Program-made: the position numbers and the translations under genes
Notes under the pieces: generated by a model
The model's input: only the letters and a program-made list of their open reading frames with translations
Database searches by the model: none
Told to the model about the DNA's origin: nothing
Source: Polynucleobacter sp. AP-Kolm-20A-A1
GTDB taxonomy: Bacteria; Pseudomonadota; Gammaproteobacteria; Burkholderiales; Burkholderiaceae
DNA: 64,000 bases
NCBI RefSeq assembly: GCF_018688315.1
Contig: NZ_CP061315.1
Location: 496,001-560,000 of the forward strand
Direction of reading: 5' to 3'
Part shown: positions 24,540 to 28,891 of the stretch, one piece after another
Numbering within the stretch: the stretch's first letter is position 1
Layout: each line of letters opens with the position of its first letter

Positions 24540-24570
24540 AAAAGGGCCTAGAGAAATCTAGGCCCTTTTG
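24540..24570. terminator. Bidirectional terminator between ppsA and the Anbu gene
   Basis: AAAAGGGCCTAGA (24540-24552), loop GAAA, TCTAGGCCCTTTT (24557-24569): a perfect 13-bp stem with A and T tracts on each side. It lies between two convergent genes (ppsA plus, Anbu minus), so one element can end both transcripts. Confidence 0.92.
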
Positions 24571-24586: not shown

Positions 24587-25477
24587 TTATTTTGCCTTCG
24601 ATTTTGTACTGACTCGTTTGACAGACTTTTTAACGGTACGAGTTGGTACAGCTTTCTTGGCATTACTGGGTTTAGGTTTAGATGGCTGACGATGCAGTGG
24701 TACTGCACCCATCTTTTTTGCTGGCGCTGAAATTGCGCTCGACTTATTTGCACCACTCCAGCTTGGCTCAGAGATAGAGTTAAACGCAGCGCGGAGCTTT
24801 TCACCCCATAGCTGATGAATCATTTGGAAGTAGGGGTTCGACTCATCCATAGTCACCAGCTTGTCAGCTCTCAAGGAGTTCTTTTCATAAACCAGTAAAT
24901 CCAGTGGCAGACCAACGGAAATATTACTGTTTAGGGTTGAATCCATTGAGATCAGGGCGCACTTCGTTGCTAGATTGAGCGACGTATTGAAGTTCAGTAC
25001 GCGATCTAGAATGGGTTTGCCGTATTTTGACTCGCCGATCTGGAAATAGCAGGTCTCAGGAGTGGCTTCAATAAAATTGCCTGCTGAATAAATATTAAAT
25101 AGACGTGGTCTTTCACCTTTTACTTGGCCGCCGAAGATGAGATTGCAGTTGAAATCAATACCAGCTTTTTCAAGGGCCTTGTGGTCACGTTCGTAAACCT
25201 GCTTTATGGCGTCGCCGATGACAACCGCAGCATCATGGGAGTTCTCGGCTGTCCAAAGATTCATGCCATTAAGCAATTGACCCTGCAAAAGAATTTCTTT
25301 GACTGCCTGGGTGATCGCTAAATTACCGGCACTCATTAAAACAAAGAAACGATCCTTGTCTTTCTGAAACAAGGTCATTTTTCTGAAGGTGCCAATTTGA
25401 TCTACACCTGCATTTGTGCGGGTATCTGATAAAAATACAAGACCATCTTTAAGGCAAAGCCCAACGCAATACGTCAT
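24587..25477 (-). CDS. Anbu-type proteasome-like Ntn hydrolase
   Basis: 296 residues from the ATG at 25477. This start leaves Met-Thr-Tyr, so removal of Met exposes the catalytic Thr1; the TTG at 25483 would not. GLCLKDGLVFLSDTRTN contains Asp17 and Lys32 follows in TFRKM, completing the proteasome-type site. It is the COG3484 Anbu family (ancestral beta subunit), which forms open helical or ring assemblies in published structures; its peptidase substrate is unsettled. The last 58 residues are unusual: 16 Lys/Arg and no acidic residue. It is the last gene of a four-gene minus-strand cluster. ATG 25477 has an AGAGGG site 8 nt upstream. Confidence 0.92.
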   Translation of the reverse strand: MTYCVGLCLKDGLVFLSDTRTNAGVDQIGTFRKMTLFQKDKDRFFVLMSAGNLAITQAVKEILLQGQLLNGMNLWTAENSHDAAVVIGDAIKQVYERDHKALEKAGIDFNCNLIFGGQVKGERPRLFNIYSAGNFIEATPETCYFQIGESKYGKPILDRVLNFNTSLNLATKCALISMDSTLNSNISVGLPLDLLVYEKNSLRADKLVTMDESNPYFQMIHQLWGEKLRAAFNSISEPSWSGANKSSAISAPAKKMGAVPLHRQPSKPKPSNAKKAVPTRTVKKSVKRVSTKSKAK

Positions 25478-25530
25478 TCCCAAACCCTCTTCATTATTTC
25501 TTGAGATTATCTCTTAAAAAGTAGGCGGGC

Positions 25531-26328
25531 CTAAGCTAGTTGATGAATGGAGATTGTGGCGCTAAGCTCTTCGCCCCCGCCGCCGGTGCGAACACCCTTT
25601 ACCGGGGCTGCAGAGTAGTAATCGCGACCAATAGCTAGCCTAATGTGCCTTGAATCAATTAGGCAGGCGTGAGTAATGTCGACACTTGTCCAGATGCCCT
25701 TATCAATGTCGCTACAGAAATCAATCCAGGCGTGACTGGCAAGATTTGGCGATTCTTCCGCAAAGAAATAGCCGCTGACATAGCGAGCCGGTATTCCGGA
25801 GGCGCGGCATAGGCTCAACATAATATGAGCATGATCTTGGCAAACGCCAGATTTCATGGCAAAGGATTGGGCGGCAGTAGTGGCAAAGTTAGTCTGTCCT
25901 GGAGTGTAGACAATCAAACCTTGAACGGCCTCAGCAAGCTTAAGTACTTGATCAACTGAATTTTTCTTGGGAAGGCTGTAAGAGAAATAGTCCAACATTT
26001 CTTCTGTTGGCTCAGTTAAGTTGGTCTGTTGCAAAAGGTAGTAAGGTGAAACTGCCTTAGCATCATCGATAAACTCAAAGGCATCTTGAGTATGAACTTC
26101 ACCCTCAGCTTCAATCATCATTGAGGTGTAGGGGGTTTCTTGGACAAAGACACTGCAAAGATTATTAAAGCTATCCAATGAATTGGATGCTTTGATTGGA
26201 GTGCTAATTTTCCACTTATCGATTTGTTGCCCAGCAACTGTCTGCGGCGTTAACCGCAACTCTTGAATAGAGTAGCGCACTGGGGTTTCGTAGCGATACT
26301 CAGTGCGATGGCGAATTTTAAGATTCAT
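25531..26328 (-). CDS. Transglutaminase-like protein with N-terminal beta domain
   Basis: 265 residues. A bacterial transglutaminase N-terminal region (1-100, starting LKIRHRTEYRYETPVRYS) is followed by a papain-like catalytic domain. Candidate triad: Cys163 (GVCQDHAH), His199 (SHAWIDF) and Asp217 (SVDITH). Such proteins may act as proteases or amide-forming enzymes; the substrate is unknown. It lies 53 nt upstream of the Anbu gene and 14 nt downstream of the alpha-E gene on the same strand, the association reported for Anbu loci. Confidence 0.9.
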   Translation of the reverse strand: MNLKIRHRTEYRYETPVRYSIQELRLTPQTVAGQQIDKWKISTPIKASNSLDSFNNLCSVFVQETPYTSMMIEAEGEVHTQDAFEFIDDAKAVSPYYLLQQTNLTEPTEEMLDYFSYSLPKKNSVDQVLKLAEAVQGLIVYTPGQTNFATTAAQSFAMKSGVCQDHAHIMLSLCRASGIPARYVSGYFFAEESPNLASHAWIDFCSDIDKGIWTSVDITHACLIDSRHIRLAIGRDYYSAAPVKGVRTGGGGEELSATISIHQLA

Positions 26329-26342
26329 ATATATAGGGTTTC

Positions 26343-27320
26343 TTAGGCAACGGCCAATGGTATGAGATAGGCGCTACTGAACTCATCGGCCACATGGTTA
26401 ATGCGCTCTAAGAAAGCTTCAATAAATTCCTCTAGACCTTGCTCAAATACTTCATCGATATCTGAGTATTCCAAACTTGCTTTGAGTTTGCCAAGTAAGC
26501 GCTCAATTTCTTTGGATTGCTGATTCTTGACCTCAGAAATCAAGGGTATCAATTCATTCACGCAGCACACCAATGATCGCGGCATTTGCTTGTTGAATAT
26601 CAATAACTCAGCAACCTGTTTTGGGGTTACTTGGTCGGAGTAGATTTGGCGATAGATCTCAAACGCTGACACTGAGCGCAGTAAGGCTGCCCAGTGATAG
26701 AAATCAAAGAACTCACCGTCGGTCCCTTCTTCCGATGATTTCTTAGCGCCTAATACTTTTAGAGCGGCCTGATCTTCATATTTGGTTTCCAAAATACGCG
26801 CAGTGTTATCGGCACGCTCTAATAGAGTTCCCACGCTGATAAAGTAAAAAGCTTCATTCTTCAGCATCGTGCCATAGAGAACGCCTCTAAATAGATGGCA
26901 GCGGTGTTTCACCCATTCAAGTAATCTGCTTGGATCGGCTTGATGACGCGCCTCTAGGATGCGTTGTAACTCAAGCCAAGTGGTGTTTTGTGTTTCCCAC
27001 ACTTCAGAAGTGATCTTCCCGCGAATGACGCGCGCATTCTCGCGAGCGGCAAACAAGCAGGAAACAATGCTGGAGGGATTGCTGGTTTCATAAATCATGA
27101 AATCCAAGACATTCTCGCGATTGATAACGTCGTATTTACTAAGAAAAGCTTCTTCCAGCTTGGAGATTGTTAGTAATTTCTTCCAGCTTTGCTCTAAAAA
27201 CTCAGCAGGCTGTGGAAGAAGGGATGTCTGATGGTTTACGTCGAGCATGCGGGCAGTATTTTCTGCGCGCTCGGTATAGCGGGCCATCCAGTAAAGACAA
27301 TCGGCGGTACGACTTAACAT
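26343..27320 (-). CDS. Alpha-E domain protein (DUF403)
   Basis: 325 residues, mainly alpha-helical, with the conserved start MLSRTADCLYWMARYTERAENTARML (residues 1-26), rich in Arg, Glu and aromatic residues typical of the alpha-E family. Its conserved Glu-rich helices are of unknown function. It sits between the ATP-grasp gene (26 nt gap) and the transglutaminase gene (14 nt). In published comparative work these families co-occur and are proposed to make or modify a peptide. Confidence 0.92.
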   Translation of the reverse strand: MLSRTADCLYWMARYTERAENTARMLDVNHQTSLLPQPAEFLEQSWKKLLTISKLEEAFLSKYDVINRENVLDFMIYETSNPSSIVSCLFAARENARVIRGKITSEVWETQNTTWLELQRILEARHQADPSRLLEWVKHRCHLFRGVLYGTMLKNEAFYFISVGTLLERADNTARILETKYEDQAALKVLGAKKSSEEGTDGEFFDFYHWAALLRSVSAFEIYRQIYSDQVTPKQVAELLIFNKQMPRSLVCCVNELIPLISEVKNQQSKEIERLLGKLKASLEYSDIDEVFEQGLEEFIEAFLERINHVADEFSSAYLIPLAVA

Positions 27321-27346
27321 TTTCTCTGGTTCCTCTTACTCTTCTC

Positions 27347-28759
27347 TCACTCTTCCAATACCCAGGTATCTTTAGTTCCGCCACCTTGGGAGGAGTTCAC
27401 CACCAAAGAACCTTCTTTGAGTGCAACCCTAGTTAAACCACCGGGAACCATCTTGATGGTTTTTCCGGAGAGCACGAAGGGTCTTAAGTCGATATGTCTT
27501 GGCGCTACGCCTGACTCTACAAAGGTAGGGCAGGTTGAGAGCGCTAAGGTAGGTTGAGCAATATATTTGTCTGGGTTGGCAATGAGATGTGTTCTAAATT
27601 CTTCGATCTCTGCTTTAGTGGATGCTGGGCCAACCAACATGCCATAGCCGCCAGCACCATGAGTAAGTTTTACCACTAACTTATCTAGATTGGCTAAGGT
27701 GTATGCCAAGTCATCTGTCTTGCGACATTGAAATGTGGGAACGTTATTGAGAATTGGCTTTTCGCCAAGATAAAACTCAATCATCTCGGGAACGTATGGA
27801 TAGATTGACTTGTCATCGGCAATGCCAGTACCAATCGCATTGGCTAAGGTGACATTACCTGCGCGATGTGCCGATAGCAACCCGGCAACGCCCAAAGTAG
27901 AGTCTGAGCGAAATGCTAGTGGATCCAAGAAATCATCATCGACGCGGCGATAGATTACATCGACTCTCTCAGGTCCTTGAGTAGTGCGCATAAAGACTTG
28001 CTCGTTCTTCACAAACAAGTCCTTACCTTCCACTAGTTCGACGCCCATCTGTTGGGCGAGATAACTGTGCTCAAAGTATGCGGAGTTATACATGCCAGGC
28101 GTTAGTACGACCACGTTTGGTTTTTTAACATCATCCGGTTTTACGGATTTGAGGCATTCCAACAAAAGATCTGGATAGTGCTCAACAGGAGCAATGCGGT
28201 ACTTCTGAAAGAGATCGGGAAAAAGGCGCATCATCATCTTGCGATCTTCAACCATATAAGAAACGCCAGAAGGAACACGTAGGTTATCTTCTAGTACATA
28301 GAATTCACCTTCGCCGGCGCGCACGATATCGATACCTGCAATTTGTGCGTAGATGTCTCTTGGCACGCTAACGTTGCGCATCTCAGGGCGATATTGCGCA
28401 TTGTTATAAATCTGTTCGGCAGGAACAATTCCTGCTTTGATAATTTCTTCGTCGTGATAGACGTCGTAGATGAAGCGGTTAAGTGCCTTGACGCGTTGGC
28501 GGAGTCCTGCCTCGAGTTGCTCCCATTCTTTGGCCGTAAAGATGCGGGGTACTTGATCAAATGGAATGGTTCTTTCGGACCCCAGATCATCGCCGTAGAC
28601 CGCGAAGGTAATGCCAACGCGTCTAAAGATGAGGTCGGCTTCAGCGCGCTTGAGACCCATCAGGGTATCGGATTGCTGCTTTAACCAATTGTGGAAAATT
28701 TGGTAGTGGGGACGCGCTTTGCCTGCGGCGTCGAGCATTTCGTCAAAAGGCAATTTCAT
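27347..28759 (-). CDS. Circularly permuted type 2 ATP-grasp protein
   Basis: 470 residues from the ATG at 28759 (KLPFDEML); an upstream ATG at 28831 would add 24 residues of unlikely sequence. Conserved blocks are FAVYGDDLGSERTIPFD, REDLLE-type LEDNLRVPSGVSYMVEDR and the glycine loop KLTHGAGGYGMLVG, with the acidic VIYRRVDDDFLDPL stretch between. ATP-grasp ligases join a carboxylate to an amine or thiol through an acyl phosphate. It is the first gene of the Anbu cluster. Product unknown; amide or peptide ligation is inference. Confidence 0.92.
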   Translation of the reverse strand: MKLPFDEMLDAAGKARPHYQIFHNWLKQQSDTLMGLKRAEADLIFRRVGITFAVYGDDLGSERTIPFDQVPRIFTAKEWEQLEAGLRQRVKALNRFIYDVYHDEEIIKAGIVPAEQIYNNAQYRPEMRNVSVPRDIYAQIAGIDIVRAGEGEFYVLEDNLRVPSGVSYMVEDRKMMMRLFPDLFQKYRIAPVEHYPDLLLECLKSVKPDDVKKPNVVVLTPGMYNSAYFEHSYLAQQMGVELVEGKDLFVKNEQVFMRTTQGPERVDVIYRRVDDDFLDPLAFRSDSTLGVAGLLSAHRAGNVTLANAIGTGIADDKSIYPYVPEMIEFYLGEKPILNNVPTFQCRKTDDLAYTLANLDKLVVKLTHGAGGYGMLVGPASTKAEIEEFRTHLIANPDKYIAQPTLALSTCPTFVESGVAPRHIDLRPFVLSGKTIKMVPGGLTRVALKEGSLVVNSSQGGGTKDTWVLEE

Positions 28760-28891
28760 AGTTATCAAACTAATGCCTTTAAAAGGATTGGATATTGGGA
28801 TTTGAAGCGGCTTGGTGCTGATTCGCACCATAAAAGTGCATAAATGCTCAAATATTAGCCCTAAGGCCAGTCTACCCCAGTTTTTGGGGAA

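Follow-up and report, generated by a model that had tools for sequence, protein, structure and literature searches.

The stretch of DNA analysed here (the window) is 64,000 nucleotides (nt) of Polynucleobacter sp. AP-Kolm-20A-A1, and at 24587-28759 it carries four adjacent genes, which encode an ATP-grasp protein, an alpha-E protein, a transglutaminase-like protein and the proteasome-like protein Anbu. The genes lie on one strand and in conserved order, and the cluster is the already published Anbu operon, found here in a freshwater Polynucleobacter; its closest relatives, by record name, are also Polynucleobacter. Published work describes the four genes as a conserved operon, proposed to serve in peptide synthesis or tagging, with a role that is unconfirmed (PMC6376114, PMC5666114); the cited papers were available in part, and statements about them refer to those parts. 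A first-pass annotation of the window, made from its letters alone, had given the same peptide proposal and the same lack of an established role, in line with these papers, and had placed the four families on one strand with gaps of 26, 14 and 53 nt, with which the coordinates of the open reading frames (ORFs) and the profile matches agree. It had overlooked a conserved promoter element before the ATP-grasp gene, and that element bears most on function. The features are collected in Table 1.

Table 1. Features of the Anbu cluster in window coordinates, with related genes elsewhere given as genome:contig:position.
Feature	Position	Strand	Description
ATP-grasp gene (gene 1)	27347-28759	-	470 residues; circularly permuted type 2, amide/peptide ligase family
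alpha-E gene (gene 2)	26343-27320	-	325 residues
Transglutaminase-like gene (gene 3)	25531-26328	-	265 residues; bacterial N-terminal domain
Anbu gene (gene 4)	24587-25477	-	296 residues; proteasome-beta-like N-terminal nucleophile (Ntn) hydrolase fold
Anbu C-terminal tail	24587-24757	-	56 residues, 16 of them Lys or Arg
Hairpin	24540-24569		13 bp, with A- and T-runs; between Anbu and ppsA
NtrC-type palindrome (predicted site)	28824-28840	-	TGCACTTTTATGGTGCG; 64 nt before the ATP-grasp ATG
Further conserved half-site	28807-28818	-	GCACCAAGCCGC; immediately downstream of the palindrome
Conserved leader	28760-28780	-	AAAGGCATTAGTTTGATAACT; abuts the ATP-grasp start codon; from an alignment of 30 loci
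NtrC gene of this genome (L069)	G000:C1:704231-705658
Lone transglutaminase-like genes	G005:C3:661428; G006:C1:8390; G027:C1:473058; G056:C205:674
Fragmented cluster (L061)	G017:C1:976644-982700

The gap between the cluster and smpB is 132 nt, where the first-pass annotation had estimated about 130, and the gap to the convergent ppsA gene is 70 nt. The terminator which that annotation had drawn as the other boundary is borne out by the folding of the hairpin (-21 kcal/mol, z-score -4.8, 0 of 200 shuffles as good), and the hairpin is probably a bidirectional terminator separating Anbu from ppsA. A consensus terminator scan does not list it because the T-run sits within the stem. A simple sigma70 scan listed no promoter-like site for 28760-28891. 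The ATP-grasp ORF is open as far as an alternative start at 28831, and 28759 was preferred because 1-nt indels in relatives disrupt the frame upstream of it. By this arrangement, the four genes plausibly form one complete transcription unit.

All the key residues named in the first-pass annotation are present in the proteins. The ATP-grasp protein matches PF14403 with 554 bits (profile 1-374 of 374) and PF04174 with 516 bits in profile searches, and PDB 3n6x with 724 bits; its glycine loop is GAGG at residue 368, and HGAGG is kept in 89 of 95 relatives. The alpha-E protein matches PF04168 over its full length (329 bits, profile 1-294 of 294), has two ER motifs (E17 R18 and E168 R169) which are invariant across 28 sequences, and is predicted by AlphaFold2 (AF2) to be all-helical, with a predicted local distance difference test score (pLDDT) of 88 and a predicted template modelling score (pTM) of 0.88. 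The transglutaminase-like protein matches PF08379 (71 bits) and PF01841 (67 bits) and has the catalytic residues Cys163/His199/Asp217; among its relatives the Cys and His motifs occur in 83 of 83 and the Asp, by a strict pattern, in 72 of 83. Anbu barely passes the general Proteasome model PF00227 (22.9 bits against a threshold of 22.4) and matches the solved Anbu chains 5loy, 5nyw, 5nyj, 5nyf and 5lox with E-values of 4e-63 to 7.5e-85, the best in phmmer being 5loy_A (7.5e-85, 288 bits, residues 2-240). Thr1/Asp17/Lys32 of Anbu, numbered without the Met, are conserved in 84 of the 84 Anbu ORFs examined, and the C-terminal tails of relatives are shorter or different. Each of the four proteins has one match in this genome, which is 1.92 Mb in one contig.

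A genus sample of 61 Polynucleobacter genomes, in which this genome is G000, was used to see which of the genes travel together. ATP-grasp and alpha-E are both present in the same 48 genomes and both absent from the same 13, and Anbu accompanies the pair in 46 of the 48 and is found in none of the 13. The two Anbu-negative genomes are G021, where the contig ends, and G015 (L050), where ATP-grasp and alpha-E are adjacent, neither Anbu nor the cluster transglutaminase gave a match, and the palindrome described below is altered. By a row-by-row reading the cluster transglutaminase-like gene is in 43 of the 48; in G005, G006, G029 and G056 the alpha-E gene is directly followed by Anbu, so that these three-gene loci retain Anbu. 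The ATP-grasp and alpha-E genes are the core, because this pair co-varies in the genus while transglutaminase and Anbu are each absent in some relatives. The four-gene set is not fixed and its genes are separable. Three of the genomes whose cluster has no transglutaminase (G005, G006 and G056) carry a lone transglutaminase-like gene elsewhere, of about 290-300 residues and 26-29% identity, and so does G027, which has no Anbu cluster. In G017, a 1.55-Mb genome, the entire cluster is fragmented, with stops in some pieces.

A class sample of 149 genomes was searched for ATP-grasp and Anbu, and named loci were compared as the best 80 of 201. The class sample has 45 genomes with ATP-grasp, 38 with Anbu and 37 with both. 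The sole Anbu-positive genome without ATP-grasp (G080) has a partial match, and 8 of the 45 ATP-grasp genomes are without Anbu. The two genes lie at most 10 kb apart in 29 of the 37 genomes having both. Among the named loci, four lack genes because a contig ends there (L133, L134, L147 and L162), four are without transglutaminase (L174, L175, L177 and L178), and L176 has a distant one elsewhere. The record CALPOM020000191.1 (L163, 3457 bases), titled Thermoflexus hugenholtzii, contains a Polynucleobacter-like Anbu cluster, and its title is probably wrong. Conserved co-occurrence in relatives, which the first-pass annotation had put forward as one test of its claim, holds for the pair in 48 of 48 and for Anbu in 46 of 48 in the genus and in 37 of 38 class genomes; the idea of a set stands in this respect and has to be loosened as to composition, given the loci without transglutaminase and the arrangement of the near pairs, just 5 of 29 of which have Anbu downstream on the same strand as here. 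That last count is what speaks for the four genes being chance neighbours with no joint function; against this stand a Fisher p of 5e-26 for the Anbu/ATP-grasp association over the 149 genomes, with kinship ignored, and all four genes in order at 71 of the 80 named loci, some of them cut by a contig end, and the probability of mere chance is practically nil.

The overlooked promoter element is the palindrome before the ATP-grasp gene, which agrees by its letters with the E. coli NtrC box consensus TGCACCAnnnTGGTGCA (PMC8743547). In 30 aligned upstream regions TGCAC-N7-GTGCA followed by GCACCAAGC is constant while the flanks drift, and of the 74 named loci that have 200 nt or more of upstream sequence, 64 show GCAC-N7-GTGC at -70 to -81. 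Of 63 unique sequences, the 28 with equal offset were profiled, and in these the half-site GCACCA is kept at 96-100% per position. Ten named loci are without the exact palindrome: L130, L158 and L173 are changed in one half, L124 is poorly preserved by eye, and L171 and L174-L178 are titled outside Polynucleobacter or have just 52-58% Anbu identity. Within the genus sample the palindrome lies within 120 nt in 40 of the 48 cluster-bearing genomes. There is thus good support from the alignments for a predicted NtrC site here, and the Anbu cluster has upstream of it the NtrC box by which members of the NtrC regulon are recognised.

The strict NtrC-type pattern GCACYN5RGTGC, to which the genome figures are confined, occurs five times in the whole genome: twice before glnA, once before a pair of genes for Gcw_chp (an outer-membrane protein) and then PII, once before the Anbu cluster and once in a coding sequence, that of a 2Fe-2S protein. 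The families of the genes at these sites were confirmed; a fragment after the PII gene which resembles the start of an ammonium transporter matched no family and is not used as support.

At part of the loci in other genera the same cluster is preceded by a different type of promoter. The scan for a sigma54-type promoter covered the 300 nt preceding the ATP-grasp gene in 47 class-sample loci out of 44 genomes, or in 54 loci when 7 named non-Polynucleobacter loci are included. A strict match has GG-N10-GC and 7 or more of 8 further letters, and a looser cut-off accepts 6 or more of the 8. At the strict cut-off 11 of the 47 have one, against 0 of 47 in antisense and 0 of 47 in the stretch from -600 to -300; over the 54 the count is 17, with 3 in antisense (L175, L177 and L178), control spacings of 8, 9, 11 and 12 give 0, 0, 1 and 0, and Markov shuffles lead one to expect 0.24. 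The looser cut-off gives 20 of 47 against 3 of 47 in antisense and 1 of 47 in the distal stretch. NtrC-type sites in the Y/R form within 400 nt were found at 2 of the 47 and 2 of the 7, with 0.1 expected over the 54. Within 300 nt at 66 Polynucleobacter loci, no sigma54-type promoter was found at either cut-off. The family COG3484 is, we take it, Anbu. As a proteasome-type protease, COG3484 is included in a sigma54 survey (PMC12316311).

The regulator itself is changed in the genus. An NtrC model was passed in 57 of the 61 genomes, and the loop by which NtrC contacts sigma54 was read in 55 of these proteins, G023 (a stop in the match) and G025 (in pieces) being left out; rpoN, by the sigma54 DNA-binding domain, was detected in 22 of the 61, some assemblies being incomplete. 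The loop is GAFTGA in 8 of the 55, all of them rpoN-bearing, and altered in 47, of which 35 have GAFPGA; all 37 read genomes without detected rpoN have an altered loop. In this genome rpoN is present, yet the NtrC loop is GAFPGA in place of the GAFTGA of a sigma54-activating NtrC, and the Walker B motif is LFLGEI, with Gly replacing Asp. The Walker-B Asp is lost in part of the Polynucleobacter NtrC proteins read. Among cluster-bearing genomes whose NtrC was read, the palindrome is found in 36 of the 39 with an altered loop and 0 of the 4 with GAFTGA, counts which are not independent trials because the genomes are related. One of the four, G032, has in place of the palindrome TGGCACACAACTTGCT, a sigma54-like match by eye; in G005, G006 and G029 no sigma54-like match was found before the cluster at the exact spacing. 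A similar switch appears to mark the glnA promoter: of 19 glnA regions 18 (L069, L244-L260) were parsed, G053 being left out. In G005 and G032, whose NtrC has GAFTGA, a single NtrC site is combined with a sigma54-type promoter, TGGCATGCTTTGTGCA; the remaining 16 carry one or two NtrC sites and match at most 5 of 8 sigma54 letters. Altogether it is fairly probable that NtrC turned into a sigma54-independent regulator, that at the Anbu cluster a promoter of sigma54 type gave way to a directly NtrC-bound one, and that few functions were kept under NtrC. An NtrC without GAFTGA is known to work at sigma70 promoters in Caulobacter and Rhodobacter capsulatus (PMC10274813).

The reading we favour for the whole cluster, and regard as quite probable, is a nitrogen-limitation operon in which the ATP-grasp and alpha-E proteins make an amide-bonded product and the other two proteins process it. 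Its nitrogen regulation has good support from promoter comparison: NtrC would bind the palindrome and control the four genes jointly with glnA and the PII gene set, and would do so by a route that bypasses sigma54, because this NtrC has neither GAFTGA nor the Walker-B aspartate and the upstream region shows no sigma54-type promoter. Nitrogen limitation of wild-type P. putida KT2440 raised PP_2686, PP_2687 and PP_2688 12.6-, 11.0- and 14.7-fold (PMC7801951), and the authors, who cite an earlier induction report, consider NtrB/NtrC the likely regulator of PP_2685-2688.

There is moderate support for ATP-grasp and alpha-E being one ATP-using ligase, whose first step would be to extend a small acid or peptide through an amide bond. 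The Yersinia ATP-grasp of the Anbu operon releases phosphate from ATP (PMC6376114). A natural ATP-grasp/alpha-E fusion was modelled with AF2 (pLDDT 87, pTM 0.86), and the model suggests that the two domains dock in a fixed arrangement; the nearest structures to its ATP-grasp half are 3n6x, then glutathione synthetases, the E-64 ligase Cp1B (9cjn), which forms an amide (PMC12568646), and glutathionylspermidine synthetase (GspS). In later steps, which are more weakly suggested, the transglutaminase-like protein (by thiol acyl transfer or hydrolysis) and Anbu (as an N-terminal threonine hydrolase) might trim, transfer or degrade the ligase product. In nitrogen shortage the set would then make and recycle a nitrogen-containing peptide-like conjugate, which, given nitrogen control and the inferred ligation, is the most economical reading.

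Such fusions are encoded in a second, Anbu-less cluster (L089-L098, L179-L190). Their glycine loop and EDN motif are missing in 21 aligned rows, with L186 left out, and they are probable pseudo-ATP-grasps; because of the missing loop, docking is carried over to the unfused pair by homology. In L089 the neighbours of the fusion gene encode a DUF2126/transglutaminase protein and a second transglutaminase-like protein, and GCACN7GTGC sites stand shortly before the DUF2126/transglutaminase ORF at 8 of 10 loci (L089-L091, L094-L098), the distance being taken from the ORF list for L089 and L095 and by eye for the others.

Several observations weigh against the favoured reading. The fusions behind the docking argument are not active ligases, for want of the glycine loop. 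The rpoN mutant of P. putida still induces PP_2686-2688 14.2-, 16.0- and 19.6-fold, and the proteasome-like Anbu gene PP_2685 changes just 1.12-fold in the wild type and 1.45-fold in the mutant (PMC7801951); nitrogen induction is therefore borne out for three genes and sigma54 dependence is not. Expression stayed the same under several other conditions, according to PMC5666114. Neither a sigma54-type nor an NtrC-type element was found at 35 of the 47 class-sample loci by the strict cut-off, or at 26 of 47 with 6 of 8 letters, and nitrogen control therefore cannot be extended to all. The reversed-pattern control gives 4 sites in this genome against 5 for the NtrC-type pattern, so that the weight rests on the positions and conservation of the sites and not on their number, and the Gcw_chp/PII site, one of the four non-coding copies, is located between divergent genes. 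These last two points would also fit a palindrome that belongs to another regulator, the nitrogen link being accidental; this is very unlikely in view of where the four non-coding copies stand (two before glnA, one each before the PII gene set and the Anbu cluster), of the agreement with the E. coli NtrC box and of the sigma54-type promoters found upstream of this cluster in other genera. Lastly, published assays detected neither peptidase activity of Anbu nor a stable complex between the proteins of the operon (PMC6376114).

These negative peptidase and pull-down tests also count against protein tagging, a proposal in the literature (PMC6376114). In it, proteins would receive a peptide or amine from ATP-grasp/alpha-E and the transglutaminase-like protein, and Anbu would detach the tag or degrade the tagged proteins, in analogy to ubiquitin or Pup handling. 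The invariant Anbu Thr1/Asp17/Lys32 would suit such a system; the gaps in and around the cluster are too small to hold a tag gene longer than about 40 codons, the cluster has no AAA+ unfoldase, Anbu is retained at loci without transglutaminase, and tagging is unlikely. It is quite unlikely, too, that Anbu is an ATP-independent starvation protease acting unspecifically for nitrogen, with partners that use transglutaminase chemistry to alter fragments or to release ammonia. This is among the hypotheses of PMC6376114 and would share the nitrogen link of palindrome and P. putida induction; it needs no ATP-using ligase, yet 0 of the 61 genus genomes have Anbu without ATP-grasp and alpha-E, and the eight class-sample ATP-grasp genomes without Anbu also speak against it.

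If the nitrogen-limitation reading is true, the Anbu operon is among the very few functions which a streamlined genome holds under its master nitrogen regulator, and Anbu would belong in core nitrogen economy. Work on Anbu has so far been largely about proteasome evolution. A conserved NtrC-type site, as before glutamine synthetase, points to nitrogen limitation as the condition for a product search, and the genus supplies a natural series of genomes that differ in whether they have sigma54, GAFTGA, the transglutaminase gene and the entire cluster.

Compared with known systems, the cluster is closest to the Yersinia bercovieri-type Anbu operon, with which it shares the four families, their order and the Anbu active-site residues (PMC6376114, PMC5666114). 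It differs in that the Polynucleobacter promoter has an NtrC-type palindrome and no sigma54-type -24/-12 element, and in that the Anbu tail is variable and basic; the NtrC-type promoter and its apparent rebuilding, in a lineage often without sigma54, are what the present analysis adds. P. putida PP_2685-2688 likewise combines a proteasome-like protein and a transglutaminase in one gene set, whereas there the proteasome-like gene changed 1.1-fold in wild type while its three neighbours rose (PMC7801951). B. cenocepacia I35_5080-5083 shares the ATP-grasp (DUF404/407), alpha-E (DUF403) and transglutaminase genes, and its expression needs NtrC and sigma54, in a species where 95% of ntrC-dependent genes are also sigma54-regulated; in contrast to the cluster described here, no Anbu is named in the available text, and a large transglutaminase-domain protein is present, as in the second Polynucleobacter cluster (PMC5491218). 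The NtrC of Caulobacter, which binds before glnBA and glnK, and that of R. capsulatus are likewise without the sigma54-contacting loop; there the loop is deleted, whereas in Polynucleobacter it is substituted, mostly to GAFPGA, together with altered glnA and Anbu promoters (PMC10274813).

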